This document shows positions 13,676 through 33,126 of a stretch of 36,192 bases of DNA, in pieces. Source of the DNA: a bacterium D16-76 (GTDB lineage Bacteria > Bacillota > Clostridia > Oscillospirales > Acutalibacteraceae); contig QZEE01000029.1 of NCBI GenBank assembly GCA_009917445.1, forward strand, positions 1 through 36,192, given 5' to 3'. Each line of letters starts with the position of its first letter. Within the stretch, counting starts at the first letter, position 1. The translations under genes and the position numbers were made by a program. The notes under the pieces were generated by a model that had not been told where the DNA came from, searched no databases, and saw only the letters and a list, made by a program, of their open reading frames with translations.

Positions 13676-13682
13676 ATAGACG

Positions 13683-13724: not shown

Positions 13725-13739
13725 TTTGGAGGGATTCTT

Positions 13740-17126: not shown

Positions 17127-18641
17127 ATGTGCCCCCAAAAGGCAGTTTCTTTACTAATGGCATTTCTTGTTTTGGTTGCTGTGCTTTGTTCATGCAGCCA
17201 GGAGCAGAAACCCAAGTCAGATGAACAGTCAGGAACCAGTTCTGTATCCCTTTCTCAGGCAGAAAATGACACGGAAGAAAGTCCTGTTCCGGATACAAAG
17301 GACGCGAAACAAAAACTGACTTTCCTCACAACCTTTGAACACAACTATGCCGGCCTGAAGCCCTGGGTGGAAGATTTCGCACGGCTGAACCCGGGTGTGG
17401 AGACAGAAATTGAATATGGACTGGATTCTCTCTCATCGGAAAGTCAGTGGGATAATTACCGTACCCGTTGGACAACGGAGGTTATGAGTGGGGAAGCCCC
17501 GGACATTCTCCTAGATGAAGGATACATAAATCCCGCCCAATACGAGCAGAGCGGCCTAATGTATGACATCTATGAATGGATGGACAAAGACCCGGATTTT
17601 CAGGACACGGATTATTTCCACAACCTGTTTGAAGCCTTTGAGGTCAACGGTCACCTCTATACCTTACCGGTGACGTATTACTTTCAGTTCGTGTATCTCA
17701 ATGACGCCTTACTACAAGCCTCGGGCAAGCAGCTGAACCAGTGGGACAAAATCAACTATAGGGATATCATGGAAATCTACCACAGCGTGGAGAAGCAGGG
17801 GCTACTGGCAGAAGACTTCACGCTGGAATACATGGATACGCAGCCCGCTTACAGTATGTTTTTGAACACCGAACTGGTGGATTATGTAAGCTTGGAAGAT
17901 CGTTCTACCACATTGGAGTCGCCTGAGTTTATCGAATACCTAACTGCAACCAAGGATATCCCAACTAAGCGCAAGGCTTCCGACGGCTTGGCTATGGTCG
18001 GCGGGCGGGCCCAGTACATGATGAAAGAATTTGCCAAATCCAATGCGGAGGGGAACACATCGTTGATGATGGATTTAAACATTTCCTTGGACGGCTGGAT
18101 TGACCACATGGACGAGTTGGTGCCAGGCTGCGCTGGGCCCTTTGTCCTCACGTCAGTGCAGGGTACGCAGTCCTTCTATCCAGAACTGAAAGTCTGTGTG
18201 CCCACCAGTTGTAAAAACCCGGAACTGGCCTGGAAGTTTTTGAAATTCATGATTGCCCCGCCAGAGGTGCCCGCCTATGGCCAGCGTTGGTTCCCAGAAG
18301 GTAGTGTGGATTTGAGCAAGACCTTCCCAGTGACAAATCGTGAAAATTTCCGAACCTTTGCGAAGCTCTACTCGCAGGGTGCCAACTATGTGCAAGAAAC
18401 CGGCGGTGCTCCCTGGCCGGAGGATTTCGATCTGATATCCGCCGACTGCCCCGTCACCGACGAACTGCTGAATAAGTTGGAGATCATCATCGAGGGCATC
18501 ACCAAAACCACCGACCGCTTCGGTCCTTTGCGGGATTTGATGCTACCTGAGCTTCAGGAGTATTACGAAACGGACACTGTGACTGCGGAACAGTGCGCGA
18601 AGCGGCTCCAAGAGATTGCGGATTTGTATTTGCAGGAATAA
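17127..18641 (+). CDS. Solute-binding lipoprotein 1 of a CUT1-type ABC importer
   Basis: 504 residues from ATG 17127, preferred over GTG 17121 because AGGAGG (17113-17118) is 8 bases from the ATG and only 2 from the GTG. The signal sequence ends in a lipobox (VLCSC), then a Ser/Glu-rich linker. The mature part has family-1 extracellular solute-binding features: FARLNPGVETEIEYG, SGEAPDILLDEGY, GHLYTLPVTYYFQ and NPELAWKFLKFMI. This family usually binds oligosaccharides. It is related to lipoprotein 2 at 27815, including the same C-terminal pattern (EQCAKRLQE, EECAKQLQE). No permease is adjacent on this side; the shared permeases lie 5 kb downstream. First gene after the palindromic promoter and probably co-transcribed with precursor 1. 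Confidence 0.85.
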   Translation: MCPQKAVSLLMAFLVLVAVLCSCSQEQKPKSDEQSGTSSVSLSQAENDTEESPVPDTKDAKQKLTFLTTFEHNYAGLKPWVEDFARLNPGVETEIEYGLDSLSSESQWDNYRTRWTTEVMSGEAPDILLDEGYINPAQYEQSGLMYDIYEWMDKDPDFQDTDYFHNLFEAFEVNGHLYTLPVTYYFQFVYLNDALLQASGKQLNQWDKINYRDIMEIYHSVEKQGLLAEDFTLEYMDTQPAYSMFLNTELVDYVSLEDRSTTLESPEFIEYLTATKDIPTKRKASDGLAMVGGRAQYMMKEFAKSNAEGNTSLMMDLNISLDGWIDHMDELVPGCAGPFVLTSVQGTQSFYPELKVCVPTSCKNPELAWKFLKFMIAPPEVPAYGQRWFPEGSVDLSKTFPVTNRENFRTFAKLYSQGANYVQETGGAPWPEDFDLISADCPVTDELLNKLEIIIEGITKTTDRFGPLRDLMLPELQEYYETDTVTAEQCAKRLQEIADLYLQE

Positions 18642-18794
18642 TTTGCGCAGCAGAGAGTATTCTAAGTAGCAATTTGTCGAAATTCTGGCTCCTGCTCAAA
18701 GATATAAAATGGAAAGACTTTCTTGAATTTTGCAGCCAGCTATTTCCACATAAAGATTTCTGAAATTACATTTAGTAATGAAAGGATTGATTGT

Positions 18795-19004
18795 ATGAAA
18801 AAAGCACTGATTTCCCAGAGAAAAGGTGATTCCATGAAAACGTACATGGACTTAAGATGGGTAGCATGTACATGTTCCTGCCTGAACATGTGTTATTGCA
18901 CCTGCGGCGTATCGCAGGAAAGTGCGCATAACGGTCATGTTTCAGCTACTCTAACCCCTGCTTCTGGTTCAAATCCATCTTCAGAAGTGCAGGCCAGATT
19001 CTAA
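18795..19004 (+). CDS. Cys-rich RiPP precursor peptide 1
   Basis: 69 residues from ATG 18795 (AAAGGA 7 bases upstream). This start is preferred over ATG 18834 because it supplies a leader KKALISQRKG that matches KKKLGKSQREG in precursor 2. The leader (about 1-24) is followed by a six-Cys block CTCSCLNMCYCTC and a Ser/Thr/Asn/Gly-rich tail. Size, Cys clustering and position just before a CcpM-like radical SAM gene fit the CLI_3235-type Cys-rich precursor class of clostridia. The expected modification is a radical SAM-dependent thioether or similar bond at Cys; its nature is not known. The two tails differ, so the two products should differ. Confidence 0.78.
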   Translation: MKKALISQRKGDSMKTYMDLRWVACTCSCLNMCYCTCGVSQESAHNGHVSATLTPASGSNPSSEVQARF

Positions 19005-19294
19005 AATCGTTTCGTAATATGGCAGCGAGATTAGCATGATTTAGTTATACTCAAGTTGTATGTGGTTAATTATGGCTGGCCGTGATTTACAAAGTAGTAT
19101 AATTAGAAAGTGAAAAGCTCGCGTGGAATCTTGAGGTGTGTTTTCAGATGCGATTTGTTGAAATGTATGTATAATTCAGACAATCTCTAATCAGATTTTC
19201 ACACCAGGTTTTACATGTCAGTTACGAAGGAAGCTGGTTGCGAACGGATTGCAACCAGCTTCTCCATATATATTTTACCAGGAGATGTTTGTCC
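19005..19294 (+). other. 290-base spacer between precursor 1 and its maturase
   Basis: AT-rich, no credible coding frame. It contains two TATAAT sequences (19098-19103 and 19170-19175) without matching -35 boxes, and near its end a 12-bp hairpin (listed separately). Such a gap after a precursor gene usually lets the precursor be made in excess over the enzymes. Confidence 0.5.
19230..19262 (+). terminator. Hairpin between precursor 1 and the maturase
   Basis: GAAGCTGGTTGC (19230-19241) pairs perfectly with GCAACCAGCTTC (19251-19262) across a 9-base loop. There is no continuous U-run (TCCATATATATTTTA follows), so it is a leaky terminator, an mRNA processing signal or a 3'-end stabiliser for the precursor message. 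Confidence 0.6.
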
Positions 19295-20671
19295 ATGCCT
19301 TATATTCAATTTGAACTTCCTATAGGAGAATATGTTTACGAGCGAAATCAAAATAAGGTATACACTATATCCAAGTTTGGTTATGAGCAAGGCAGTATTC
19401 AAAGCGATAATGACATGCAGACTTGGCTTGAAAGAAGAAATATAGATACATCCAACAGTATCGAGACTATTGAAAATCCTGAGACTGATGAACTAGACAA
19501 ACTTCTGCAAACAGATGTAGCATTCATCACTCTTCAGGTTACACAAAATTGCAATTTACGGTGCAGCTATTGTGCATATTCTGGCGCGTACTATAATAGA
19601 ACCCATAATAAAAAGACGATGTCCTTCGCGGTCGCCAAAAAGGCGGTTGATTTTCTTCTCAGTCATTCAACTGCATCTGATGACATTTCTGTAGGCTTTT
19701 ATGGCGGAGAACCGTTGTTGGAATTTGGATTGATAAAAGAGGTTGTTGCGTATACTGAATCTGTTTGTTGGGGAAAAAATGTTTCATATGCCATAACAAC
19801 AAATGCCACACTTTTAAAAGGCGAAATCTTAGATTTTCTGGTTGAAAAAAATTTCAAGGTCATGATTAGTCTGGATGGACCAAAAGAAGTACATGACCAG
19901 AACCGTGTTTTTTCTGACGGACGCGGTTCCTATGATATTGTTATGCGCAACATAGCAAATATAAAAAAGCTGTATCCCATATTTTATAAGCAGGTGATGA
20001 CTAACACGGTATTAAGTCCAGATGAAGATTATCAGTGTGTGCAACGCTATTTTGATACAGATGCCGTTGTGTCCGAACTTAACTCTCGGCTCTCATTGAT
20101 TTCCACCCAAGACATAAAAGAGGAAATAAACTATCCAGACCGATTATACATAACCCAAAATGAGGAACTTGTAAAGGTGATGCTCTACATGCTGGGGAAA
20201 CTGGATAAAAGATTGGTTTCCAAAATATACCTGTCTCTTGCTGACAAAATCTGTGAGTCATATGAATCTTTGAAATTGAAAGGGACTGTTTCAAAATGTG
20301 CACATCCAGGTGGGCCCTGCACACCTGCTAAGCACAGACTATTTATAGATGTTGATGGTAATTTCTATCCATGTGAGCGAGTGTCAGAATGCCCTCGAAC
20401 GGAAATTGGAAATCTTGAGACGGGTTTTGACGTTCAACAAATTAAGGACTGTATGAATGTCGGAAAATTAACTGAAACTGCTTGTAAGAACTGCTGGGCT
20501 TTCCTGCACTGTAACCAGTGTATTGCAAGTTGTCTTGACAGAAATGTTTTTTCCTCTGGGAAAAGGCTGCAGGAATGCAATAGGTCTCGTGCAGGAGCAT
20601 TAGATAATATAAAAAATGTTGTTTTTTTACAACACTATGGATTTGACTTTGAAAGGTGGTATATCAAATGA
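19295..20671 (+). CDS. CcpM-like radical SAM peptide maturase 1
   Basis: 458 residues from ATG 19295 (GGAGATG upstream); homology of the first residues with maturase 2 (MPYIQF, MSYIVF) fixes the start. The radical SAM motif is C86-x3-C90-x2-C93 (CNLRCSYC) after TLQVTQN. GFYGGEPLLEF and ISLDGPKEVHDQNR are SAM-fold motifs. A Cys-rich C-terminal auxiliary-cluster domain follows (FYPCERV, CKNCWAFLHCNQCIASC, LQECN), as in SPASM maturases. It belongs to the Cys-rich peptide maturase group I recall as CcpM (TIGR04068). It would form carbon-based cross-links on precursor 1 using SAM and Fe-S clusters in the cytoplasm. The stop overlaps the next start (ATGA). Coding DNA is notably AT-rich. Confidence 0.88.
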   Translation: MPYIQFELPIGEYVYERNQNKVYTISKFGYEQGSIQSDNDMQTWLERRNIDTSNSIETIENPETDELDKLLQTDVAFITLQVTQNCNLRCSYCAYSGAYYNRTHNKKTMSFAVAKKAVDFLLSHSTASDDISVGFYGGEPLLEFGLIKEVVAYTESVCWGKNVSYAITTNATLLKGEILDFLVEKNFKVMISLDGPKEVHDQNRVFSDGRGSYDIVMRNIANIKKLYPIFYKQVMTNTVLSPDEDYQCVQRYFDTDAVVSELNSRLSLISTQDIKEEINYPDRLYITQNEELVKVMLYMLGKLDKRLVSKIYLSLADKICESYESLKLKGTVSKCAHPGGPCTPAKHRLFIDVDGNFYPCERVSECPRTEIGNLETGFDVQQIKDCMNVGKLTETACKNCWAFLHCNQCIASCLDRNVFSSGKRLQECNRSRAGALDNIKNVVFLQHYGFDFERWYIK

Positions 20672-21726
20672 GCAGAATGCTTATTTATCCGGCTGATAGA
20701 AGGTGCCTTCCCCTTTTGGAGTTCAAAAATGCGCTGAATGTTGAAGATTTATATTTGGCTACACCTGTTGGCACAGAGTTAAACAGCCCGCTTTTTTCTT
20801 CCAGATGTGCTTATGGTGATGACTTGCCTCGAATTACTGTTATACATGATAAATATCCTACCCAACCAGTAGAATATGTCTTGCTGTTCTATAATCTATC
20901 AGTTTCAAAAGAAGATTATCAACGCATAATTGATGTTTATCTAGCACAAGGAAGTCAAATTTACTTATCAGAGGATATGCCGAAAGATTTATTGTCCCAT
21001 AACGTAAAGTATATGAGTTCTACAAGCAGCGATTGTGTTGATTTAGAAAAATTCCCATTTGATAGAATTTTTCCCATTTCCACACCTACATTGGCGATTG
21101 TAGGTGCTGGCGTGAATTGCAGCAAGTTTGATCTGTTGACAGCGCTTACTATATTTTTTAATAAAGAGGGTTACAAGGTGATGAGCCTTTCTGGTTCAGA
21201 ACTTTCGTGCTTCTGGAACATAATGCTACTTCCTGGTTTTCTATACGAAAACATCTCTCTAGAGAATAAAACCCTTATGTTTAACCATTATCTTTATGAC
21301 ATGGTGTTAAGAGAAAAACCAGATATAGTCATGATTGATGTTCCTGGAGGTGTTACAGCAATCAATCCATACGAGTATAAGTATGCAGGAGAAATAGCTC
21401 AAGTGATCACAGGTGCAATCGAGGTTGACTTGGGGATATATAGCGTATATGCCCATTCGTATTCAAAAGAGTTTTTTGAAATTCTGACTGCACAATGCAA
21501 ATATAAGTGTGGCTTTGAACCGTATTTGTTCCATATAGCAAATACAGATTTCCGCGTTGATCCAGATTCTAAAAAAACTGTTTTCAGATCTGCAAAAAAA
21601 GAATTTGTTGCAGAAGAACTCATAAAGGCCAGAAAGACCATGACAGAACGAGTTTTTTCGCTTTTTGATGAAAAAACACCTGGACAAATACTAGAACAAA
21701 TATATTCTTTTTTTACGGGAGCTTAG
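20668..21726 (+). CDS. TIGR04066-like peptide maturation protein 1
   Basis: 352 residues from the ATG overlapping the maturase stop. It starts MSRMLIYPADRRCLPLLEF, matching MKLLVYPMNKSLAPLGRY in its paralogue at 30745. A nucleotide-binding-like middle region is visible: PTLAIVGAGVNCSKFDLLTAL resembles a Walker A loop with Lys followed by Phe instead of Thr/Ser, and KPDIVMIDVPGGV resembles Walker B. I recall this group as the peptide maturation system protein TIGR04066, always next to CcpM. The function is unknown; a degenerate P-loop that binds the enzyme or peptide is one possibility. Confidence 0.78.
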   Translation: MSRMLIYPADRRCLPLLEFKNALNVEDLYLATPVGTELNSPLFSSRCAYGDDLPRITVIHDKYPTQPVEYVLLFYNLSVSKEDYQRIIDVYLAQGSQIYLSEDMPKDLLSHNVKYMSSTSSDCVDLEKFPFDRIFPISTPTLAIVGAGVNCSKFDLLTALTIFFNKEGYKVMSLSGSELSCFWNIMLLPGFLYENISLENKTLMFNHYLYDMVLREKPDIVMIDVPGGVTAINPYEYKYAGEIAQVITGAIEVDLGIYSVYAHSYSKEFFEILTAQCKYKCGFEPYLFHIANTDFRVDPDSKKTVFRSAKKEFVAEELIKARKTMTERVFSLFDEKTPGQILEQIYSFFTGA

Positions 21727-21730
21727 CTAT

Positions 21731-21976
21731 ATGGATAGGGAAATGATTCAAAACGAAATTCAGCACTTGCTCATGTATTGCCAGGGGACTATTGATAATG
21801 AAAATGAAAATTTCTTTTCTCCTTCCACGGGCTTTTCAGGGAGGGATATTGTATTTGTTTTACTTGAGTTTCAAAAAAAACATCCGTACGATTTGAATTT
21901 AGTGATTGAGCACATAGAAGGCTTTACTCTTCGTTCTATCGTCGATGCTTTGTATTTGGTGCTATCAGGGGAGTAG
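21731..21976 (+). CDS. Acyl-carrier-related peptide maturation protein 1
   Basis: 81 residues, starting 4 bases after the previous gene with GGGAG upstream. A small all-helical protein with an acyl-carrier-like pattern (GRDIVFVLLEFQKKHPYDLNLVIEHIEG..LRSIVDAL). The DSL phosphopantetheine site of true ACPs reads DIV here, so the attachment serine is missing. I recall the group as the peptide maturation system acyl carrier-related protein (TIGR04069). It may be a docking or scaffold protein for the maturase. Its paralogue is at 31837-32091. Confidence 0.72.
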   Translation: MDREMIQNEIQHLLMYCQGTIDNENENFFSPSTGFSGRDIVFVLLEFQKKHPYDLNLVIEHIEGFTLRSIVDALYLVLSGE

Positions 21977-22102
21977 CTAATGCTTCATATGGAACATATG
22001 AGGCAAGTTATGTTGACAATCGCGCTCTGGAACAGCCATCTTGTAATGGTGATTGCTAAATTCGGATAAGCTTTCTAAAATATAAGCCAGAAGGAGAACC
22101 TT

Positions 22103-23806
22103 ATGAAAAGAGGCAAGATTGCCCCTCATATGCAACGTATTTTTTCCTATCTTAAACCCTTCAAAAGGGAATTCCTGCTGGTTGGCCTGACCATGCTGAT
22201 TTCTGTTACCGTGGGTTTCCTTCAGCCGCTGGTCATCCAGTCCATCACAGACAATGGTATGCTTCAGCAAAATATGAGGGTGATTGTCCGCTCGGTACTG
22301 GCACTGGCTGGTCTTGTTATAGTGAACCAGGCCATTGACCTGTGGCAGACCCGCATCTTTGCTGACGTACATAACAAGTCCTACTATCTGGTGTTCCACC
22401 AAGTTTTTGAGAAACTCCTTCACTTGAAAAAATCTTATTTTGAGGACAAGAACAATACAGAAATCCTGAGTTTCCTGCAAATGGATGTGTCGCAGGTTTC
22501 CTCCATTACAGACCGCTACATGGTTATGAGCGCCAGCTACATCTTCCGTATCATCAGCGGCTTGGTCGGTCTGTTTGTGATAAGCTGGAAGCTGGCCCTG
22601 GTGGTATTGGCCATGGTGCCCGTGAAGTTCTTTCTTGTGAAAGGCATGTCCAAGCGCCGGGAAAAGGCCATGGATGAGATGATCGAATCCAGCAGGGACT
22701 TTTCCCGGTGGTTTGGAGATAACCTGAATGGCGTTGACGAAATAAAGCTATGGAACCTATTCCAGTCTAGGGAAAAAATTTTTGCGGAGAAGCAGCGGGA
22801 ACTTCTGAAATTAGAGAAGAAGGGCACGATGATCGATGGCTGGAACAGCTTCTGGGAAGTGTTGCTGGAGTGGTCAGTAACCATTGTGCTATACCTGCTG
22901 GGCGGCTGGCTCATCTGTACGGGCAGCTTGACCATAGGCGCGGTGTTTGCGTTTTCCAGCTATTCCGGCTATGTGACCGGGCCTGTGTCCGCACTTATCA
23001 ATTTGAAAATGTACTTTGCCCGCATCATGCCTTCGGCTCGCAGGCTGTTCCAGTTTCTCGACATGGAAACAGAGCCAGATGCTGGTAAAAAGACTACTGA
23101 TAATGAGCCGCTAAAATTGGAGTTTCGGGATGTGGCGTTCTGTTATGAGGAAAACCGTCCTATCCTGCAAGGCGTGAATTTCACAGTGGAACCTGGTGAA
23201 AAAGTCGCCATTATCGGCCAGAATGGCAGCGGAAAATCAACCATCCTTAACATACTTCTGCGATTCTACCAGCCCGACGCCGGACAAGTGCTGGCGGACG
23301 GGATAGATGTGAATTGCCTGTCTCTGGAGGATTATCGCAGCCTATTTTCCGTGGTCAGCCAGGAGCCTTACCTATTTTTAGGCAACATTTTGGAAAACAC
23401 AGATTTAACCGGAGAGGCCACTGAGGAACAATTGTGTGCTGCCTTAAAAGATAGTGGCGTGGCAAGCTACATAACCCGTATGCCCGATGGGGAAAAGACC
23501 CAGATTGGCCGCAACGGGGCAAAGCTCTCTGGCGGTGAAAAGCAGAAACTGGCGGTGGCCCGCGCCTTGCTGAAAGATGCGTCGGTGGTAATTTTAGATG
23601 AAGCTACCTCTGGGTTTGACGTGGAATCGGACGCCTATCTGCATGACATCATCGTGAACCAGATGCAGGAAAAATCTGTAATCATGATTACCCATCACTA
23701 TAATAATTTGGAGGGGATGGACAGGGTGTATCGGTTAGAGGATGGCGTGCTATCGGAAGTCCACGAAATGGGAGAGGGGGTCAATTTCGATGAGGAAGAA
23801 AAATAG
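22103..23806 (+). CDS. ABC exporter (fused TMD-NBD), probable peptide exporter
   Basis: 567 residues with AAGGAGA upstream of the ATG. The N-terminal half has about six transmembrane helices of the type I exporter fold. The ATPase half shows IIGQNGSGKST (Walker A, about 369-379), VVSQEPYLF (Q-loop), LSGGEKQK (signature, about 474), VVILDEATSGFD (Walker B) and ITHHYN (H-loop). There is no N-terminal C39 peptidase domain, so leader removal must come from elsewhere, plausibly the S8 protease at 32095. Its position between module A and the importer genes suggests it secretes the mature Cys-rich peptides. It overlaps the next gene by 17 bases and is more GC-rich than module A. Confidence 0.85.
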   Translation: MKRGKIAPHMQRIFSYLKPFKREFLLVGLTMLISVTVGFLQPLVIQSITDNGMLQQNMRVIVRSVLALAGLVIVNQAIDLWQTRIFADVHNKSYYLVFHQVFEKLLHLKKSYFEDKNNTEILSFLQMDVSQVSSITDRYMVMSASYIFRIISGLVGLFVISWKLALVVLAMVPVKFFLVKGMSKRREKAMDEMIESSRDFSRWFGDNLNGVDEIKLWNLFQSREKIFAEKQRELLKLEKKGTMIDGWNSFWEVLLEWSVTIVLYLLGGWLICTGSLTIGAVFAFSSYSGYVTGPVSALINLKMYFARIMPSARRLFQFLDMETEPDAGKKTTDNEPLKLEFRDVAFCYEENRPILQGVNFTVEPGEKVAIIGQNGSGKSTILNILLRFYQPDAGQVLADGIDVNCLSLEDYRSLFSVVSQEPYLFLGNILENTDLTGEATEEQLCAALKDSGVASYITRMPDGEKTQIGRNGAKLSGGEKQKLAVARALLKDASVVILDEATSGFDVESDAYLHDIIVNQMQEKSVIMITHHYNNLEGMDRVYRLEDGVLSEVHEMGEGVNFDEEEK

Positions 23807-24644
23807 TGCCTTTTGGCTCTTTCTTCTGCCCAGCCTGCTGGGGGTGCTGCTGTTCTACGCCATCCCCTTCCTGTTCTCCCTGTACTACGCTTTGGTAGAC
23901 AACATGGGAGCCCAGAAATTCGTAGGCACGCAGAACTTTATCGACACCCTGACAAATTCCCTGTTCCAATCTGCGGCACGAAATACAATCGTTTTTATTA
24001 TACTTTCTGTCCCCTTGAGCATGGCCCTTTCCCTGTTTTTATCCCTGTGCCTGCAGGGCATGAAAAAGGGCCGCGCCCCTGCCACCATGCTGATGCTCTT
24101 GCCCCTGGTAGTGCCCTCGGGCACAATCGTGTACTTCTGGAAGGTGCTTTTTGACGCCAATGGGTTAGTCCAAAAATGCCTGCTGCAAATGGGCTTCCAG
24201 CACGAGGTAGTGGCCCAGAACGGCTGGGCCATGGGCGTCCTGGTGGTGGTCTTCCTGTGGAAGAACGTGAGCTACAACATCGTGCTGTTCTGGTCGGGAC
24301 TGAACTGGATCCCCAAGACTTATTATGAACAGATGGCCCTGGAGGGGGCGGGCAGGTGGAAACAATTCACCAACGTGACCTGGATCTATCTTTCGCCCAC
24401 TACCTTTGTTGTGCTGCTCATGAGCATCGTAAACTCCTTCAAGGTGTTCAAGGAGGTCTACATGCTCTACGGCGCATACCCCAGCCCGGACATCTATATG
24501 CTCCAGCATTACATGAATAACCAGTTTTTGTCACTAAATATGCAAAAATTATCCAGCGCGGCGTACATCTTATTCTTGGTGATTGGGATTGTACTCCTAA
24601 TTGTATTCTATGCACAAAAACGCGTCACGGACGCCTACCAGTAA
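23790..24644 (+). CDS. CUT1-type ABC permease (MalF-like)
   Basis: 284 residues from ATG 23790, chosen because the protein then begins RKKNSAFWLFLLPSLLGVLLFY, a normal first helix, and AGAGGGGG lies upstream; the longer frame from 23742 reads into the exporter gene. Six hydrophobic segments are visible. The EAA-type loop that touches the ATPase is present (YEQMALEGAGRWKQFTNVTWIYLSPT). These subunits import sugars or related solutes captured by a lipoprotein, here the products of 17127 and 27815. It is followed after 12 bases by the second permease. Confidence 0.87.
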   Translation: MRKKNSAFWLFLLPSLLGVLLFYAIPFLFSLYYALVDNMGAQKFVGTQNFIDTLTNSLFQSAARNTIVFIILSVPLSMALSLFLSLCLQGMKKGRAPATMLMLLPLVVPSGTIVYFWKVLFDANGLVQKCLLQMGFQHEVVAQNGWAMGVLVVVFLWKNVSYNIVLFWSGLNWIPKTYYEQMALEGAGRWKQFTNVTWIYLSPTTFVVLLMSIVNSFKVFKEVYMLYGAYPSPDIYMLQHYMNNQFLSLNMQKLSSAAYILFLVIGIVLLIVFYAQKRVTDAYQ

Positions 24645-24656
24645 GGAGGGGGTTTT

Positions 24657-25529: not shown

Positions 25530-25541
25530 AGGAGGGGCTTC

Positions 25542-25964
25542 ATGGTAAGGAAGGGCAGGCACCATGCGGTGCAGGTGGAACGGGAGCCGTCCATGAAAAC
25601 CTCCCGGGTCGTATATCTGTGTATTACGGCGATATATTTTCTTGTGGTGGTAGGGGCCACGGTTTACAGCCTCACCGCTTACCAGGAGCAGCTTCCCCAG
25701 GTGGAGCTGATAAATCCGGAGGGTGGGCTGCTGCCCCCGGAATGCCTTTCAGAGGGGCCGGATGGGAAAATACTGAACACGGTGGAGCGCCAGGACGGCC
25801 CCTGGGGCAAACGGTATGTTATCAAGCAAATGACGGTTTATTCATATCAGGAGCGGCCAGATGGAGAGCTCTTTGTCTATGAGGCTCTAAGCAACGAAAA
25901 CCCAGTGGTACGCAGTACTACAGCAGATTTCTTGTGGGATGGCATGGAAGTCCGGATTTTGTGA
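25542..25964 (+). CDS. Single-pass membrane protein of unknown function in the importer operon
   Basis: 140 residues with AAAGGAGGGG upstream of the ATG. A short basic cytoplasmic start is followed by one transmembrane helix (VVYLCITAIYFLVVVGATVYSL, about 22-44) and about 95 external residues ending in an RSTTADFLWDGMEVRIL pattern, faintly reminiscent of the last strand of membrane-fusion proteins. I do not recognise the family. It lies between the second permease and the ATPase gene and is transcribed with them, so an accessory role at the importer or exporter is the best guess. ATPase start 25978 follows 13 bases later. Confidence 0.7.
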   Translation: MVRKGRHHAVQVEREPSMKTSRVVYLCITAIYFLVVVGATVYSLTAYQEQLPQVELINPEGGLLPPECLSEGPDGKILNTVERQDGPWGKRYVIKQMTVYSYQERPDGELFVYEALSNENPVVRSTTADFLWDGMEVRIL

Positions 25965-25977
25965 GAAGGAGAAAGAT

Positions 25978-27147
25978 ATGGCAGGTTTGCAGCTAAAAAA
26001 TATGAAGAAGATTTATCCGCACAGTGCCAATACTCGCAAAGGGACAGAGAAGAAGACAAACCTTCAGATCACCGATGAGGGTGTTGTGGCGGTGCAGGAG
26101 TTCAATCTTGATATTGCCGACAAGGAGTTTATCGTGCTGGTAGGCCCATCGGGCTGCGGCAAGACCACCACTCTGCGCATGGTGGCCGGGCTGGAAGAGA
26201 TCACCGCAGGAGAATTGTATATCGACGGCAAGCTCATGAACAACGTGGAGCCCAAAGACCGGGACATCTCCATGGTGTTCCAGAGCTACGCCTTGTACCC
26301 GCACCTGAAGGTCTGGGAAAACATCGGCTTCCCCCTAAAGCTGCGGAAAATGGACAAGAAAAGCATCCAGAAGCGGGTAAAGGAGGTGGCGCGGATACTG
26401 GGCCTGACGGAATATCTGGACCGCAAGCCCAAGGAGCTTTCCGGCGGGCAGAAGCAGCGGGTGGCTATCGGCCGGGCCATTGTGCGGGAGCCAAAGGTAC
26501 TCTTGATGGACGAACCTCTTTCGAACCTGGACGCGAAGCTGCGCAACCACATGCGCACGGAGATTATAAAACTTAGACAAAAAATTAATACGACTTTTAT
26601 CTATGTTACCCACGATCAGACGGAGGCCATGACCCTGGGCGACCGCATCGTCATTATGAAGGACGGGTTCATCCAGCAGATCGGTACGCCCCAGGCGGTC
26701 TTCGACCACCCGGCGAATCTGTTTGTGGCGGGGTTCATTGGTACGCCGCAGATGAACTTTTTCGACGGCGAATTGCTCCACGACGAGGGCGGCTACCGCA
26801 TCACAGTGGAGGGCCAGCCCATGGCGCTGCCCCTGGAGAAGCAGAACCGCCTGGCGGCCGGGAGCGTGCAGCCCCAGAAGATCACCGTGGGCGTGCGGCC
26901 TGACTACTTGTACCCCGCCGAGGACGGGAAAGGGCTTGCCGCCAAAGTGGACGTGACGGAAATGATGGGCAGCGAGGTGCATGTACACTGCTCGGTGGGC
27001 GGGAAGGAAGCTGTGCTCATTGTGCCTACTGTGAATAAGGATGGCCGGCACTTCCAGCCGCCTGGGGTGAGGGAACAAATCTCCATTGGGTTTAGCGCCC
27101 AGCTGTGCCATTTATTTGGTGAGGATGAGCGGAACTTAGTGGAGTAA
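25978..27147 (+). CDS. MalK/MsmK/UgpC-type ABC ATPase
   Basis: 389 residues from ATG 25978 (AGAAGGAGAAAG upstream); the longer frame from 25939 overlaps the preceding gene. Motifs are GPSGCGKTT (Walker A, about 56), FQSYALYPHLKV (Q-loop), LSGGQKQR (signature, about 154), LLMDEPLSNLDAKLR (Walker B and D-loop) and VTHDQTEAM (H-loop). It has the C-terminal regulatory OB-fold extension of MalK-like proteins (GVRPDYLYPAEDGKG). An insertion of about 25 residues (HSANTRKGTEKKTNLQITDE) between the first strand and GVVAVQEF is not usual for the family. It energises the two CUT1 permeases. This is the last gene of the transport block. Confidence 0.9.
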   Translation: MAGLQLKNMKKIYPHSANTRKGTEKKTNLQITDEGVVAVQEFNLDIADKEFIVLVGPSGCGKTTTLRMVAGLEEITAGELYIDGKLMNNVEPKDRDISMVFQSYALYPHLKVWENIGFPLKLRKMDKKSIQKRVKEVARILGLTEYLDRKPKELSGGQKQRVAIGRAIVREPKVLLMDEPLSNLDAKLRNHMRTEIIKLRQKINTTFIYVTHDQTEAMTLGDRIVIMKDGFIQQIGTPQAVFDHPANLFVAGFIGTPQMNFFDGELLHDEGGYRITVEGQPMALPLEKQNRLAAGSVQPQKITVGVRPDYLYPAEDGKGLAAKVDVTEMMGSEVHVHCSVGGKEAVLIVPTVNKDGRHFQPPGVREQISIGFSAQLCHLFGEDERNLVE

Positions 27148-27541: not shown

Positions 27542-27745
27542 ATGGCTAAGAAGAAGTTAGGTAAATCCCAGCGCGAAGGTATGCTCAATACGTTCATTGA
27601 GGCCCGGTGCGCCTGCGGTTCTTGCAGGTGTACAGTCTGCGGCGGATGCAGCCACTCGAATGATGGCGAAATGCGGATGAACGGGCAAACGAGCAACTCT
27701 TATAGTATCCTCACGGGATACTTCAACACACTGGGCGCCATGTAA
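27542..27745 (+). CDS. Cys-rich RiPP precursor peptide 2
   Basis: 67 residues with TAGGAGG 9 bases upstream. The basic leader MAKKKLGKSQREG continues through MLNTFIEAR and is followed by the six-Cys block CACGSCRCTVCGGC. A Ser/Asn/Gly/Met-rich tail ends in YFNTLGAM. The leader shares KK..L..SQR[KE]G with precursor 1, while the Cys spacing differs (CxCxxCxCxxCxxC against CxCxCxxxCxCxC). KLGK near the start and the Cys block fit my memory of CLI_3235-type precursors (TIGR04065). Likely substrate of the maturase at 29329; the solute-binding gene lies between them. Confidence 0.82.
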   Translation: MAKKKLGKSQREGMLNTFIEARCACGSCRCTVCGGCSHSNDGEMRMNGQTSNSYSILTGYFNTLGAM

Positions 27746-27760
27746 ATATTCAATAGGAGA

Positions 27761-27800
27761 GGCTGGGTGGAGCAACAATCAGCCCAGCCATTCTTTTATT
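27761..27800 (+). terminator. Hairpin after precursor 2
   Basis: GGCTGGG (27761-27767) pairs with CCCAGCC (27783-27789), extended by a G-U pair, and is followed by ATTCTTTTATT. A leaky terminator or attenuator that would let the precursor be made in excess of the lipoprotein and maturase downstream; it occupies the same position as the hairpin at 19230 in module A. Confidence 0.6.
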
Positions 27801-27814
27801 ATCGGAGGAAAAAT

Positions 27815-29278
27815 ATGAGGCGGAATAGATGCAAATTTCGAATCGGTTGTCTGTTGATGGCTATGTTCTTTTGTGTAAGCCTTTCTGCTTGTCAAAACGA
27901 CCAAGATGACAAATTCGATGCCATCGTAAGCGCTCAAAAGGCAGCTAACGAGCAGGCCCAGTCATTCCCAAGCACAGCGCAAAAATCGGAAGAAACACCT
28001 TCCCAGGCACCCGAGGCAGAAAAAAAGCAGCTCAGCGGCGAGCTGCGGATATCCCTGCCCATGCGGGATGCAGGACTTGTGCAGCGGTCGAAAGAATTTA
28101 AAGAGCTGTATCCCGATGTGAAAATCACCTTCGATTGTATCGTGGACGACATCAGTGCTGGTATCCCTGGCGATTATACGACGCGGTATATCCAGAAAAC
28201 GGTGACCGAGTTGTCTGGAGGCGATGCCGCGGACATCGTTGACCTAGGGTTTGTATCTTTCTATAAATATGGGGCCACTGGGCTTTTCGAGGATTTGAAT
28301 GTGTTGATGGCGGAAGACCCGGCGTTTGACCGGGAAGACCTGTACACGAACATTCTGGATGCTTTGGAGGACAAGGAGGGGAAACTGTACGCCCTGCCGG
28401 CTACTTTCCGATTTAATGTGATGATCTTAAATGATTACATTATGTATGAGCTGGATATGGATGTGGAAGAAGCCTTCAAAGAGGGGGCCGATTACCGGGA
28501 CTTAATCGACCTGTACTGGCAAGCGGTAGACGCTGGTGCAATCAGGCCCGGTGATAAAGCGGGAGGATGTTTTTTTGCGGCCGGGCAAAACAAAAACTTC
28601 TTTGAGGGGTATGTTTTCCCCCGGTTCTTAGACGAGAAGGCCGGGGAAGCCCATTTTGAAACCCCGGAATTTATAGAATACTTAAAAATGACAGATGGGC
28701 TGCCTTTTGAAAAAACTGTTGCGCAAGGGGGAACCTATCCATACGATTGGCCGAATTTTGGGACAGACGATTACTTTTGCCAGCAGCTTCCGGCTATGCC
28801 CACGCATTTGGGGAATATTGAACACAATTCGCTGGCTGGCAGTACGGGGGCCATTTTTTATAAGGGGCGCGATGGGGATATCCCCTTTACGGCGGCCAGT
28901 TTGCTGGCTATACCGAAAGGCGCGGATAAGGAGCTGGCTTGGGAGTTCCTGAAGTTTGTGATAGAGGAAAAGGAATTTCCGGAGGATCTGGATATCTATA
29001 ACCCAAATATCATGCTACAGTATTTTGGCCCCTATAATTACGCGGTGCCCATCAACCGCAACAATTATCAAAAGCTTTATGGGGCGGCTTTTTCCCCCAA
29101 CCTGGCTGAAAAATTTGATGCGTACCAGCAGACATTGAACCGGCGCGTGGGCAACAGCACAGAGCTAATGGAAAACCTGCAGGATATTCTTATCAGCTAC
29201 TATGACAACCACATAATCAGTGCCGAGGAGTGCGCCAAACAGCTGCAGGAACGGGCGTGGATATATCTGAACGAATAA
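27815..29278 (+). CDS. Solute-binding lipoprotein 2 of the CUT1-type importer
   Basis: 487 residues from ATG 27815 (GGAGG 6 bases upstream); the longer frame from 27767 runs through the hairpin. Signal peptide with lipobox LSAC, then a Gln/Ser/Glu-rich linker. The mature domain has EFKELYPDVKITFDC, GGDAADIVDLGF, EGKLYALPATFRFNV and KELAWEFLKFVIEE, the family-1 solute-binding pattern. It is a diverged paralogue of lipoprotein 1 with the same C-terminal helix (SAEECAKQLQERAWIYLNE). Two lipoproteins of different sequence but one set of permeases imply two ligands entering one channel. It lies between precursor 2 and its maturase, tying the importer genetically to the peptide system. Confidence 0.85.
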   Translation: MRRNRCKFRIGCLLMAMFFCVSLSACQNDQDDKFDAIVSAQKAANEQAQSFPSTAQKSEETPSQAPEAEKKQLSGELRISLPMRDAGLVQRSKEFKELYPDVKITFDCIVDDISAGIPGDYTTRYIQKTVTELSGGDAADIVDLGFVSFYKYGATGLFEDLNVLMAEDPAFDREDLYTNILDALEDKEGKLYALPATFRFNVMILNDYIMYELDMDVEEAFKEGADYRDLIDLYWQAVDAGAIRPGDKAGGCFFAAGQNKNFFEGYVFPRFLDEKAGEAHFETPEFIEYLKMTDGLPFEKTVAQGGTYPYDWPNFGTDDYFCQQLPAMPTHLGNIEHNSLAGSTGAIFYKGRDGDIPFTAASLLAIPKGADKELAWEFLKFVIEEKEFPEDLDIYNPNIMLQYFGPYNYAVPINRNNYQKLYGAAFSPNLAEKFDAYQQTLNRRVGNSTELMENLQDILISYYDNHIISAEECAKQLQERAWIYLNE

Positions 29279-29328
29279 AGAGAAGCCGTTGCACGCTTGT
29301 TTGATTTATAGACAAAGGAGATGAAACC

Positions 29329-30732
29329 ATGTCGTATATTGTTTTTGACACGCCTGGGCCGCATGCATTCGTGTATGACCGGGAAACAAACCGGGTGATC
29401 TATATCTCGCACGCGGATGCAGAGAGTTTGCATCAGGCCCTGGAAACAGGGGAAACAAATCCCACGCTGCAGAAATATCAACAAAAAGGGATATGTTGTC
29501 CCAGCATTTTGAAGGACATAGAACACCCCACTGTCCCCATGATGGAAGAGATCGCCAGCAGCCAGTTAGAAGACCTTTTACTGCAAGTCACACAGAACTG
29601 CAACCTGCGCTGTGAATATTGTACATATTCAGGCAAGTATTATAACCGTACCCATTCCTCTAAGCATATGAGTTTTGAGGTTGCCAGCCGGTCTGTAGAT
29701 TTCTTTATGGAGCGGGCCAAGGATAAAAATTCAGTTGTCATTGGCTTCTATGGCGGAGAACCTCTATTGGAGTTTGAGCTTATAAAGAGGGTTGTAAGTT
29801 ATGTAGAGGAAAACTACGGTGAGAAAAAGGTTTCTTATGGAATGACCACAAACGGGACTCTTTTGACAGAAGATATCGTGCGCTTTTTGATAGAAAAGCA
29901 CTTCAATATCATCATTAGCCTTGACGGCCCAAAAGACCAGCACGACAAATACCGGCGCTTTGTTTCTGGGAAGGGCTCCTTTGACGTGGTGATGGAAAAC
30001 ATGCAGCGCATCCGAACCCGACATCCGGTGTTTTACCAAAATCTCCGCACAAATACAGTCGTTACACCGGATAAAGACATGGAGGCTTTAGAGGCTTTTT
30101 TGAACAAGGACGAACAACTGGAAGGGATGACCCCCGGTATTTCGATGCTTAATGACAGTGGGAATAAAGAAGAGTTTGCTTTTGGCCCAGAAAACCGCGT
30201 GGTTAACGAAAGAGAACGGGCAAAGCTGATGCTTTACTTATTAGACCAACTTGAAGAGGAACAGGTAGCTAAGACACATAGGCGCTACTTGGATGACTTG
30301 ATTTTCCTCTGCAAAACGAACCAGTCGATTGGAAAAATGACAGAGACAGCCCATCATGCAGGCCCGTGTACGGTAGGCGTCCGGAAAACATTTGTGGACG
30401 TACAAGGGAATATATATCCCTGCGAGAAAGTTGGCGAAGTTCCAGCCATGCGGCTTGGAAATGTCTTTGAAGGGTTTGATTTGGATCAGGTCAAGCGGCT
30501 GACCAATATAGGGGCGTTGACTGAGACGGAGTGCAAGGACTGCTGGGCACTGCACCATTGCACCATCTGCTTAAGCCGTTGTATAGAAAAAGATGTTATG
30601 TCCCGCAAGGCCAAGCTGCGCCATTGTGCGGAGAGTAAAGCAGAAGCACTTACAAAAATGCGAGATCTTTGCTTTTTACAGTTGGAAGGGTTGGATTTTG
30701 AAAAATTGAGAAGCCTTCAGATGGCTAAATGA
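29329..30732 (+). CDS. CcpM-like radical SAM peptide maturase 2
   Basis: 467 residues with AAAGGAGATG upstream. The radical SAM motif is C91-x3-C95-x2-C98 (CNLRCEYC), then YYNRTHSSKHMSFE, GFYGGEPLLEFELI and ISLDGPKDQHDKYR. The C-terminal auxiliary-cluster region has HHAGPC, NIYPCEKV, CKDCWALHHCTICLSRC and LRHC. Clearly paralogous to maturase 1 along its full length, including the first 25 residues that may bind the leader. DNA is more GC-rich than that of maturase 1, so the two are not a recent duplication. Expected to modify precursor 2 in the cytoplasm. Confidence 0.88.
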   Translation: MSYIVFDTPGPHAFVYDRETNRVIYISHADAESLHQALETGETNPTLQKYQQKGICCPSILKDIEHPTVPMMEEIASSQLEDLLLQVTQNCNLRCEYCTYSGKYYNRTHSSKHMSFEVASRSVDFFMERAKDKNSVVIGFYGGEPLLEFELIKRVVSYVEENYGEKKVSYGMTTNGTLLTEDIVRFLIEKHFNIIISLDGPKDQHDKYRRFVSGKGSFDVVMENMQRIRTRHPVFYQNLRTNTVVTPDKDMEALEAFLNKDEQLEGMTPGISMLNDSGNKEEFAFGPENRVVNERERAKLMLYLLDQLEEEQVAKTHRRYLDDLIFLCKTNQSIGKMTETAHHAGPCTVGVRKTFVDVQGNIYPCEKVGEVPAMRLGNVFEGFDLDQVKRLTNIGALTETECKDCWALHHCTICLSRCIEKDVMSRKAKLRHCAESKAEALTKMRDLCFLQLEGLDFEKLRSLQMAK

Positions 30733-30744
30733 TGGAGGATGGAT

Positions 30745-31824
30745 ATGAAACTGCTTGTTTACCCCATGAACAAATCCTTGGCACCTTTGGGACGATATGC
30801 AGACATGGTGACGGATTATGACCAGGTGATCCCAGTGGCCCCCAGGAGTTTCGGCTATGGAACCGGCGATATGGCCGTTGTAGATGGTGGAATGGAAAGC
30901 GGGGTTAATATCACATATGACTTGAAAGCCGCTTTGGAGGCATGTGATGCTGCTTTCTTAGATTACTGTCCTACTGCTAATTTGGATGGAAAACAATATA
31001 TGGATGTGATCCAAAGTTTGGTAAATACCGGAAGACGAGTATCGATTTCAGATGACTTACAGGATTTTCTGGTACGCCATGGCTACGAGACGATAAAAAA
31101 GCTGCCCATAGAAATCCTTGAATATAACAAAAACAACATAGTTTTAAACGAAGAAAAACGGCTGTTGGACTTATCAGTACCTTGCATTTTTGTGTTCGGT
31201 TCTGGTGATCTCACAAACAAATTTGACATACAACTGGGACTGCGCAAGGCTTTTCAAAAAGCAGGGTATACCGTCATGCAGCTTGGTACCAAAAAGTACA
31301 GTTCACTTTTTGGCTTCGACCCATTGCCTAAATTCATTTTGGAGTCAGGGGATTCCCAGCAAAAGGTTTTGGATTTTAACCACTATGTCTATGAAAAAGC
31401 CAAATCTGACAATGCAGATGTGGTTATCATCGGCATCCCAGGGGGCATTATGCCCAACAATCCTTATCAGTTTACAGAGTTTGGGGAACCGGCTTTTCTC
31501 ATAGGCAACGCGCTAAAGTCAGATATTTCCATCCTAAGCCTATACTGTGCCCCTTATCCCCAGGAAGTCTTGCAATATCTTCTTAACATATGTAAGTATC
31601 GTTTCGGTTCGCCCACCCACTATATAAGTCTGGCGTGCCAAGATATGATGGTTTCTCCCGAGACTTTGGAATTCCAAACGTTATCCATTCCAGTAAAACG
31701 TATAAATGACGACATTCTTCCCCAGGTCACTTGTCTGGGGGCCAAAGTATTTGCCGCAATGGACACGGAAGGTATGAACCATGTGGCAAAACAGATAATA
31801 GCTGAATTGAGTGAAAATATCTAG
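30745..31824 (+). CDS. TIGR04066-like peptide maturation protein 2
   Basis: 359 residues from ATG 30745, preferred over ATG 30739 because GGAGG (30734-30738) is correctly spaced only from the later codon. It begins MKLLVYPMNKSLAPL. PCIFVFGSGDLTNKFDIQLGLRKAF in pattern is a degenerate P-loop region, and NADVVIIGIPGGI a Walker B-like strand, as in paralogue 1. Role unknown; strictly clustered with the maturase and ACP-related genes in both modules. Confidence 0.78.
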   Translation: MKLLVYPMNKSLAPLGRYADMVTDYDQVIPVAPRSFGYGTGDMAVVDGGMESGVNITYDLKAALEACDAAFLDYCPTANLDGKQYMDVIQSLVNTGRRVSISDDLQDFLVRHGYETIKKLPIEILEYNKNNIVLNEEKRLLDLSVPCIFVFGSGDLTNKFDIQLGLRKAFQKAGYTVMQLGTKKYSSLFGFDPLPKFILESGDSQQKVLDFNHYVYEKAKSDNADVVIIGIPGGIMPNNPYQFTEFGEPAFLIGNALKSDISILSLYCAPYPQEVLQYLLNICKYRFGSPTHYISLACQDMMVSPETLEFQTLSIPVKRINDDILPQVTCLGAKVFAAMDTEGMNHVAKQIIAELSENI

Positions 31825-31836
31825 GGAGGGAAAAGG

Positions 31837-32091
31837 ATGACAAAGGAAATGGTGCGGGAAAGTATACGGCAGCATCTAGCCGCCTGTAAGCCTACCCCTA
31901 TTGAAGACGAAGGAGTTTCCATTTTCGGTGAACAACAAAAGTTTGAGGCGCGGGATCTGGTGTATCTTTGTCTGCAAATGAAAAGGCAGTATGGATGTGA
32001 TTTGAACCCAATCGTTCAGCAGATTAAAACATGTTCCGTTCGTGAACTGACAGATGTGTTTTGGCCGGCGTTGCGTGAAAAGTCGGCATGA
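31837..32091 (+). CDS. Acyl-carrier-related peptide maturation protein 2
   Basis: 84 residues with AGGGAGG upstream. Helical and ACP-like (ARDLVYLCLQMKRQYGCDLNPIVQQIKT), with DLV where ACPs have DSL, so no phosphopantetheine serine. Paralogue of 21731-21976. It sits 3 bases before the protease gene, closing module B. Confidence 0.72.
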   Translation: MTKEMVRESIRQHLAACKPTPIEDEGVSIFGEQQKFEARDLVYLCLQMKRQYGCDLNPIVQQIKTCSVRELTDVFWPALREKSA

Positions 32092-32094
32092 TAC

Positions 32095-33126
32095 ATGAGA
32101 AAGAATGAAGAAATGGCTATAGCTGTGATCGACAACTGGATCTCCCCCACGAGCCTACATGAAAAAACTGGACGAAACATTCAGGCAATGCAGTTACAGG
32201 ACGGAAAGTGCATCCCCCAAACAGATACAGGCAGTAGCAACTCACACGGCACCATCTGCGCCTCCATCCTGGTCGAAGCTTTGCCGGAACATATCCATCT
32301 CACAGGCTACTCCTGCCCCGGCGATGATGGACGGCCTTCGTTGGATGGGGTTTGCACGGCACTTGAAATCTGCCTGGAGAAACGGCCTGCATATATCAGT
32401 ATGAGTATCGGCAGCGAAAACTGGCTGGAAACGGAAAAACTAGCTGAATTGACAAAAAAGCTTGCTGATGCGGGCACCTATATCTTTGCCGCCTGCGCCA
32501 ACAAAGGGCATATCACTTTCCCGGCAGCATACCCGTGGGTGCTCGGCGTGCGCTACGAGGCTGGAATTTCTGGGCTTTATCGGGAGGAAAACTCGCCCAT
32601 TGGGTGCAACATTGTCGTAGGCGATTTTTCTTCCTGCGTGCTGGACAAAATGGCCGAAGAAAATCCTTTCTTTGAGTGCCGCACTAATAGTATGGCTGCC
32701 CCGTATGCCCTGGGCAAAATAGTCTCAGAGGCGGTTTCTTTGTCTGACTTTCCACGATGGATAGGCCAGAAAACAGCAGAGATGCCGAAGGAACTGCCCA
32801 TGCCTGTTGTGGTGGTCACTGGCACTGTGGGAAGAATGAAGGAACTACTAGCCTTGCTCCAGAAGGAAAGCTATCAGGCAGTGCTGCTCACAGACCGGGC
32901 AAAAACAGATTGGGTTGATATGGTTTTACATGTTGAGGCCGAGGACTTTGCGGCGTGGGTGAAGCCACTGGCAGAAGCCGGAATTTTGCTGCTGGACGTG
33001 TCGGGAGAGTTGGCAAAGTTGAAACATTTCAGCGACTATGATGTTGATTTGGGGCAAAAAGACACGAAAAAAGCCTACATAGAGATACTACAGTTTTTTG
33101 GAACTGCCGAGGAGAAAGGAGGATAA
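32095..33126 (+). CDS. Subtilisin-like (S8) protease, candidate leader peptidase
   Basis: 343 residues. The catalytic triad is visible: Asp13 (AVIDNWIS), His51 (SNSHGTICASIL) and Ser199 (TNSMAAPYALG), with oxyanion Asn136 (AACANKG). No signal peptide, so it should act inside the cell, consistent with cutting the leader before export by an ABC exporter that lacks its own peptidase. After residue 222 it carries an extra domain (PVVVVTGTVGRMKELLALLQ, then GILLLDVSGEL) that resembles the degenerate P-loop region of the TIGR04066-like neighbours. Its start has a weak ribosome binding site and may be coupled to the preceding gene; ATG 32113 is an alternative. Only one copy serves both modules. Confidence 0.82.
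   Translation: MRKNEEMAIAVIDNWISPTSLHEKTGRNIQAMQLQDGKCIPQTDTGSSNSHGTICASILVEALPEHIHLTGYSCPGDDGRPSLDGVCTALEICLEKRPAYISMSIGSENWLETEKLAELTKKLADAGTYIFAACANKGHITFPAAYPWVLGVRYEAGISGLYREENSPIGCNIVVGDFSSCVLDKMAEENPFFECRTNSMAAPYALGKIVSEAVSLSDFPRWIGQKTAEMPKELPMPVVVVTGTVGRMKELLALLQKESYQAVLLTDRAKTDWVDMVLHVEAEDFAAWVKPLAEAGILLLDVSGELAKLKHFSDYDVDLGQKDTKKAYIEILQFFGTAEEKGG

Follow-up and report, generated by a model that had tools for sequence, protein, structure and literature searches.

We analyzed a 36,192-nucleotide contig (QZEE01000029.1, positions 1 to 36,192 of the forward strand; hereafter the window) from the Acutalibacteraceae bacterium D16-76 (assembly GCA_009917445.1). It carries a locus for cysteine-rich ribosomally synthesized and post-translationally modified peptides (RiPPs) in which two CcpM-type modules, each with its own solute-binding protein (SBP) lipoprotein, have in common one ABC exporter and one complete CUT1-type importer. 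In other genomes, SBP and importer genes recur near CcpM genes, and precursor genes adjoin SBP genes. Our tentative reading, held at somewhat less than an even chance, is that these are precursor-SBP cassettes whose SBPs bind the mature peptide or its cargo and feed a transporter for retrieval or sensing. Below, G000 is the genome of the window and the window is its contig C71; other G numbers denote other genomes and L numbers denote fetched loci.

Sixteen genes, all on the + strand, fill positions 17121-33126, as judged from open reading frame (ORF) calls and family searches (Table 1). Each module comprises a precursor, a radical S-adenosylmethionine enzyme (rSAM), a TIGR04066-type protein, an acyl carrier protein (ACP)-like protein, and an SBP lipoprotein. 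With gaps in bases in parentheses (accurate to a few codons; some start codons were picked by eye), the row reads SBP1 (153) precursor 1 (284) rSAM1 (-16) TIGR04066 (4) ACP-like (126) exporter (-20) MalF (12) MalG (51) ORF140 (16) MalK (394) precursor 2 (66) SBP2 (50) rSAM2 (6) TIGR04066 (12) ACP-like (3) subtilase. If MalF starts near 23790, its gene overlaps the exporter gene by about 17-20 bp. The parts of a CUT1 importer are all present: Pfam SBP_bac_1 proteins, two permeases, and a UgpC-type ATPase. Both modules contain a Cys-rich precursor with a basic leader, recognized by our own heuristic.

A sequence-only reading of this stretch had described two CcpM modules, each with its own SBP, around a common exporter and CUT1 importer. 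That layout stands, with ORF140 and the single subtilase as further members of the row. Its "ACP-related" label found no backing from a family model. Since neither of the two proteins matches any NCBIfam model at E 0.01, TIGR04069 included, the label rests on position and mutual similarity.

As identities between the modules are low (rSAM 40%, TIGR04066 26%, SBP 25%), the modules are old relative to each other, and we rejected a recent duplication. Several CcpM sets also lie within 20 kb of each other elsewhere, two in G505 (L090) and three in G172 (L089). Doubling of CcpM modules by itself is not unusual.

SBP and importer genes near CcpM genes

We searched for TIGR04066 in three partly overlapping genome sets: 148 relatives (12 matching at E 1e-3), 391 genomes of the class (22 matching), and 394 genomes of the order (19 at E 1e-10). 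Among 318 good genomes drawn from the class, 20 had a match at E 1e-3, weak matches included. We then tested 52 fetched loci and the window. A CcpM-type rSAM lies beside TIGR04066 in 49 of these 53; L064, L072, L074, and L228, which have no complete rSAM-TIGR04066 pair, were left out. The count also omits L079-L083 (TIGR04066-like, in another layout) and L033-L034, together with weak or fragmentary TIGR04066 matches and those within ~600-residue frames, most of which were not fetched.

In the window's order, 11 of 18 CcpM loci (8 of 12 genomes; families f1, f16, and f26) have a same-strand SBP within 8 kb, and all 11 SBPs sit within 1.2 kb of rSAM or TIGR04066. Outside the order, an SBP lies within 8 kb in 3 of 31 CcpM loci (3 of 15 genomes), and in two of these loci it is no more than 1.2 kb away. 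We compared the loci with single genes of 20 control loci in the order by a strict measure, same strand and within 1.2 kb, which was adopted after the result of a looser measure was known and was run at 60, 40, 28, and 20 bits. The control genes gave 2 of 211 at 60 bits and 8 of 209 at 20-28 bits, compared with 11 of 18 loci (p between 1e-12 and 1e-9, kinship ignored). The SBP profile had been trained on SBPs of these and related loci, a bias in their favor. By the same measure, other Clostridia gave 2 of 31 loci versus 0 of 186 control genes (p 0.02). SBPs were found in none of 20 flanks of SCIFF maturases (20 of 26 places listed), compared to 14 of 49 CcpM loci (p 0.0067). The link between SBPs and CcpM in the window's order is more than chance.

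The precursor heuristic, which collects small ORFs with a basic leader and clustered cysteines, was run over the cluster stretches. It yielded 13 precursors in SBP-positive loci of the order: two in the window, one in L066, three in L067, and one each in L068, L071, L073, L076, L155, L156, and L228. All 13 adjoin an SBP gene, with 21 to 387 bases between. L228 is included here, though left out of the 49 loci, and its contig ends soon after the rSAM start; one antisense hit (L067 15796-16092) was removed. No precursor was returned by the heuristic in L070, whose contig begins in the SBP, in L157, or, outside the order, in L099. Pairing is most elaborate in G143, where three precursors and six SBPs are interleaved in one row. 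Precursor 1 resembles the L071 precursor over its last 56 residues (33% identity, E 9e-9), and the window exporter is 88% identical to that of the same locus in G010.

The importer genes also recur. MalF-MalG together with an SBP lie near CcpM genes in five families (f1, f16, f26, f51, and f46), so that the recurrent, syntenic co-occurrence in distant hosts anticipated by the sequence-only reading is found. MalF and MalG are inside the cluster in the window, G022, G040, G143, and G583. G010 has a MalG fragment at a contig end and unrelated sequence in the expected place of MalF. G172 (f51) has an SBP-MalF-MalG-HlyD-MacB-type set 6.4 kb away from its CcpM genes and on their strand; an SBP-MalF-MalG-HlyD set lies ~15 kb from CcpM in G200 (f46), with two opposite-strand genes in between, and another in G694 is on a contig different from its CcpM loci. 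Gene order varies among genomes with a linked importer: SBP (16) MalF (-4) MalG (15) HlyD (-4) MacB (-4) exporter (-4) subtilase in G040; exporter (3) subtilase (-4) MalF (-4) MalG in G143; and TIGR04066 (31) SBP (22) MalF (-4) MalG (19) HlyD in G583. Importer genes overlap exporter-operon genes by 4 bp in two families. The HlyD- and MacB-like labels were assigned partly by Pfam and otherwise by our own profiles. In L066 and L148, the MacB-like protein has its membrane segments in a one-plus-three arrangement and lacks a Pfam ATPase domain.

One SBP appears to have been exchanged. When module 2 of the window was compared with contig C133 of G010 (L070), rSAM was 94% identical, TIGR04066 89%, the ACP-like protein 81-83%, and the subtilase 75-76%, versus only 53-54% for SBP2. 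The number of synonymous substitutions per site was 0.54-0.93 in the core, with rSAM measured over the first 257 codons, and was saturated in the SBP; third-position identity was 0.61-0.76 in the core and 0.41 in the SBP. Nucleotide identity, ~0.6 before that point, steps up to 0.82 over the final 130 bases of the SBP, reaches ~0.9 in rSAM, and drops to 0.55-0.57 where the subtilase gene ends (3′). This pattern looks like a replaced SBP gene on a conserved core. In G010, the module 2 rSAM gene (L070 1558-2960) is split into two frames.

Other importer sets were seen in passing. In G172 (L089, L256), three CcpM sets in a row are followed by genes that look sensor- or regulator-like by eye, and then by the SBP, MalF, MalG, and HlyD- and MacB-like genes. 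MalF-MalG-HlyD-type sets also occur in L145, L146, L148, and L153, with no CcpM genes in the stretches fetched; SBPs are present in L148 and L153 and a MacB-like protein in L146 and L148. These sets represent an importer subfamily with adaptor proteins.

Components and flanks of the locus

Table 1. Features of the locus and its upstream region (window coordinates)
Feature	Position	Strand	Basis
BlaR1-like M56 sensor	15160..16326	-	PF05569 2.6e-24
BlaI-like repressor	16323..16757	-	PF03965 6.1e-7
Candidate promoter TTGACA-17-TAATAT	17011..17045	+	sequence pattern, ahead of SBP1
SBP1, family-1 solute-binding lipoprotein, module 1	17121..18641	+	PF01547 8.3e-12, PF13416 1.8e-11
Precursor 1, leader MKKALISQRKGDSMKTYMDLRW and Cys-rich core	18795..19004	+	heuristic match
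rSAM1, CcpM-type radical SAM maturase	19238..20671	+	TIGR04068 499.9 bits (cut-off 500)
TIGR04066-like protein, module 1	20656..21726	+	169.6 bits, below cut-off 200
ACP-like protein, module 1	21731..21976	+	28% to module 2 ACP-like, E 9e-16
ABC exporter, common to modules	22103..23806	+	MsbA-type matches below equivalog cut-offs
MalF-like CUT1 permease, likely start near 23790	23742..24644	+	UgpA 1.6e-25, below equivalog cut-off
MalG-like CUT1 permease	24657..25529	+	UgpE 5.4e-21, below equivalog cut-off
ORF140, one transmembrane segment and HlyD-type adaptor C-terminal-like domain	25542..25964	+	hhalign 97.5%, E 7.6e-12
MalK/UgpC-type ATPase	25939..27147	+	NF008653 441.7 bits, over UgpC cut-off 432
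Precursor 2, MAKKKLGKSQREG... Cys-rich core	27542..27745	+	heuristic match
SBP2, solute-binding lipoprotein, module 2	27767..29278	+	PF01547 3e-6; LSAC lipobox found by pattern
rSAM2, CcpM-type maturase	29329..30732	+	TIGR04068 494.2 bits (cut-off 500)
TIGR04066 protein, module 2	30739..31824	+	252.8 bits, over cut-off 200
ACP-like protein, module 2	31837..32091	+	similarity to module 1 ACP-like
Subtilase-like protease, probable leader peptidase	32095..33126	+	QhpE 5.6e-16, PF00082 0.003, both below cut-off

In a whole-genome search, the TIGR04068 score of rSAM1 reaches 500. The lipobox of SBP1 (LCSC) was judged by eye, and a regular expression search did not report SBP1. ORF140 was aligned against seven adaptor-like proteins from sister loci. 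When genome contigs were scanned with rSAM2, we obtained three loci, one of them relevant. Rfam at the gathering threshold gave no match. PDB profile searches with TIGR04066 and ORF140 (best E 0.05 and 0.06) and an AlphaFold model of SBP2 from three sequences (predicted local distance difference test [pLDDT] 34) were not used.

Structural modeling offers a lead to the role of the TIGR04066 family. For the module 2 member, a model built from three sequences (pLDDT 66) matches the DUF1611 structures 2obn and 2g0t at E ~1e-5 and the N-acetyltransferase DgcN (7xrj) at 5e-4, all with low TM-scores of ~0.3-0.4. Two AMP-binding-type proteins lie beside rSAM in L066 (PF00501 3e-5, below cut-off, and 3e-69); that of L067 was assigned by its likeness to the first of these and has no Pfam match itself. 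Together with the ACP-like proteins, the model and the AMP-binding-type proteins hint, tentatively, that maturation may include an acyl transfer step. The CcpM cluster of L071 also contains AgrB, LytTR regulator, and GHKL kinase genes (7493-10874), which suggests control by a peptide signal.

Upstream of SBP1, the BlaR1- and BlaI-like genes are divergently oriented. A perfect 16-base palindrome, GTGATAATATTATCAC (17030-17045), overlaps the candidate SBP1 promoter and is a single site in its own genome at up to 2 mismatches. An SBP1 relative in G001 (L217) likewise adjoins a BlaI-/BlaR1-like pair. A second BlaR1-like M56 gene lies to the right of the locus (34957-36144); the left one has the BlaI-like partner. 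Farther left, 3429-14120 holds conjugative-element-like genes (for a TraG-type P-loop protein, an NlpC/P60 protein, a large SpaA/TQ-domain surface protein, a sigma factor, and a signal peptidase).

Possible roles: retrieval, immunity, or nutrient uptake

The pairing of precursors with SBPs and the repeated capture of these genes call for a reason that involves the peptide, and the simplest would be that the SBP recognizes it. As a complete importer lies in the locus, uptake is the first guess. We propose a RiPP system in which exchangeable cassettes of a precursor and its cognate SBP lipoprotein, which would move together, are set on a CcpM-type maturation core. Joined to the core would be a leader protease, the exporter common to the modules, and a MalF/MalG(/MalK) transporter that is fed by the SBPs and has an HlyD-type adaptor piece. 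CcpM would modify the peptides, as predicted by homology only, the subtilase would trim them, and the exporter would send them out. The matching SBP would capture the mature peptide, or the peptide plus something it carries, and would hand this ligand inward, either to the locus transporter or to that transporter's close copy on the chromosome, so that it could be retrieved or sensed.

A number of observations weigh against this proposal. Import of peptides this large is not known for CUT1 systems. No SBP lies within 8 kb in 7 of 18 CcpM loci of the order and 28 of 31 elsewhere. By the looser measure, SBPs occur in 14 of 49 CcpM loci versus 3 of 20 arbitrary 20-kb stretches, in which a hit at any position counted, and the two do not differ (p 0.36); these stretches have round coordinates that we chose, eight come from G022, and two are on contigs that also carry a CcpM locus. 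In L089 and L169, outside the order, precursors are not adjacent to the SBP. The precursor upstream of the replaced SBP is off the G010 contig, and joint exchange was not seen there. Further observations on this side, given below, concern SBPs and importers in genomes or loci without CcpM.

SBP1 has 11 matches at E 1e-8 in G005, 8 each in G001 and G010, 6 in G023, and 4 in its own genome, a few rows being two pieces of one gene. Many of these relatives are single or in tandem among unrelated-looking genes (neighbors judged by eye; L219-L221 covered in part). G001 and G005, with their 8 and 11 SBPs, have no TIGR04066 match. One explanation is that the peptides are antibacterial and each SBP is a cognate immunity lipoprotein that catches its peptide at the surface. 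The transporter, helped by its HlyD/MacB-like partners, would then clear the peptide, and orphan SBPs in relatives without CcpM would be acquired immunity. The precursor-SBP pairs and the apparently replaced SBP resemble toxin-immunity pairs, the tree does not separate orphans such as those of G001 and G005 from cluster SBPs, several loci have HlyD- or MacB-like proteins after MalFG, and BlaI-/BlaR1-like genes adjoin SBP1 and its G001 relative. The CcpM product SacP23 is also reported to be active against methicillin-resistant Staphylococcus aureus (PMC10731318). However, sequestration needs no complete importer with an ATPase, and since 28 of 31 loci outside the order lack a nearby SBP, the SBP is not the general immunity of CcpM peptides. 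We consider this account nearly as good as uptake, and on balance rather unlikely.

The orphans do not generally appear to be decayed CcpM clusters: among 33 SBP or importer loci, CcpM pieces were found only in L138, L144, L227, and L228, with more distant rSAM hits in L213 and L229. Remnants of rSAM lie near MalF-MalG-ORF140 in L144 (9101-9572, with an SBP remnant) and L138 (5356-5577), perhaps relics of lost CcpM modules. The orphan SBP genes of L211 and L215 are near FtsX-type permease genes.

The importer is likewise more widespread than CcpM. Besides the window's genome, 11 genomes of the genus have a MalF at least 70% identical to that of the window, a twelfth (G025) gave partial hits, and the window's own genome carries a second copy, 91% identical, on C54. 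In 29 same-genus genomes, SBP and importer are commoner than CcpM, with the importer in 13 and CcpM in 4 (the weak TIGR04066 matches of G004 and G009, which lie in long frames or a fragment, did not score as CcpM). The SBP family is present in all 13 importer genomes, which favors the retrieval proposal, and in one further genome (p 2e-7, kinship ignored), and all 4 CcpM genomes also have the importer (p 0.03). Among the 148 relatives, in sets that we compiled and with importer type checked by neighbors for the fetched loci alone, 6 have both CcpM and the adaptor-type importer, 3 have just CcpM, and 14 have just the importer (p 2e-4). In six importer loci (L134-L139, the C54 copy among them), no SBP was found beside MalF.

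The excess of importer over CcpM genomes in the genus fits a second alternative, in which the SBP ligands are glycans or other solutes that have nothing to do with the peptide, and SBP and importer genes were captured by peptide loci because co-expression pays. The SBP protein family and the PDB sequences closest to SBP1 (CbpC, 1.6e-8; 2uvh, named sugar-binding, 1.2e-5) point the same way. So do trees of 62 SBPs (25 CcpM-linked) and 28 MalF proteins (7 linked), in which linked copies form no clade. The link has thus been made or lost repeatedly, with at least 10 (SBP) and 5 (MalF) changes forced by the trees; the link label is somewhat clustered on the SBP tree (14 changes versus 19.6 in shuffles) and not clustered on the MalF tree (7 versus 6.3). 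We fetched 13 same-genus importer loci and scanned proteins of 7 (10 proteins); neighbors are not conserved between loci. A GH127 glycosidase and a fucose-isomerase-like gene (below cut-off) lie by the importer at L141, and a polysaccharide deacetylase gene is directly upstream of MalF at L134, a neighbor too weak to shift the weights of the retrieval, immunity, and nutrient accounts. Solute uptake does not predict an SBP neighbor for each precursor, the six SBPs interleaved with three precursors in G143, or recurrence in five families in different gene orders, and no sugar gene was recognized among the linked-cluster proteins scanned, which are part of all such proteins. We regard it as unlikely.

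The sequence-only reading had allowed that the link would be chance if related CcpM clusters consistently lacked the importer and the importer had closer homologs in sugar operons with glycosidases. The sparse SBPs outside the order and the excess of importers over CcpM within the genus go some way in that direction, and the seven scanned loci, a weak test, do not clearly point to chance.

The peptide could instead use the importer as its receptor, in the way that garvicin ML uses the maltose ABC transporter (PMC4985602), with SBPs guarding the importer in producers. The presence of the importer in 13 of 29 same-genus genomes and of two copies in the producer would fit. However, a mere target would not need to be encoded in the cluster, and the clusters of several genomes do encode a diverged importer of their own; we think the receptor account improbable. 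The proposal that these genes form one system is supported. That the peptide or its cargo returns through the importer, as the sequence-only reading suggested, is our preferred account, and immunity or nutrient uptake would fit the same facts.

Relation to known systems

The importer resembles CUT1 sugar importers (UgpAEC, MalEFGK) in its SBP, two permeases, and UgpC-type ATPase. Unlike them, it has an HlyD-type adaptor piece and, in other loci, a MacB-like protein; the genus has many dispersed SBPs per importer, and no glycosidase gene was recognized in the window's cluster. NisI-type lipoproteins catch their peptide at the cell surface, and NisI is not known to be an SBP. LanI-type immunity is alike in that a lipoprotein gene is paired with a peptide gene, whereas the window adds an importer with an ATPase. 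The system of the pheromone-binding lipoproteins PrgZ and TraC in Enterococcus is Opp-type rather than CUT1, and it has unmodified pheromones and no known RiPP enzymes. Its likeness is in genetic layout, the only aspect compared here: specificity comes from binding proteins encoded on the element, which share and recruit the Opp permease of the chromosome (PMC7117660).

Known clusters of the CcpM or CLI_3235 type (TIGR04068, TIGR04066, TIGR04069) include those of SacP23 in Paenibacillus polymyxa (PMC10731318) and of Roseburia intestinalis L1-82 (PMC4573289). As far as the available parts of these papers describe, they share with the window the radical SAM maturase, TIGR04066 protein, ACP-like gene, subtilase, and ABC exporter, and SacP23 also has a Cys-rich precursor (PMC10731318). 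The gene lists in those parts contain no SBP or importer, whereas the window has both (PMC10731318, PMC4573289). Among the open-access matches listed, judged by title and the start of the abstract, none described CcpM clusters with an SBP or importer.

It is possible, though we would not put it near even, that this is a new retrieval system. Swappable precursor/SBP cassettes would act as private peptide-receptor pairs feeding a distinct transporter (SBP, MalF, MalG, HlyD-type adaptor, and MacB-like protein), and relatives without CcpM would keep orphan SBP arrays and the importer to exploit or survive the peptides of others. CcpM clusters are recurrent among clostridia. Should every peptide prove to have its own binding protein as a genetic partner, the ligand could be tested with one purified protein, peptides that are recovered or sensed by their producers may belong to a class so far regarded as bacteriocins, and a function would be suggested for a lipoprotein family and an unusual importer in several genera of the order.

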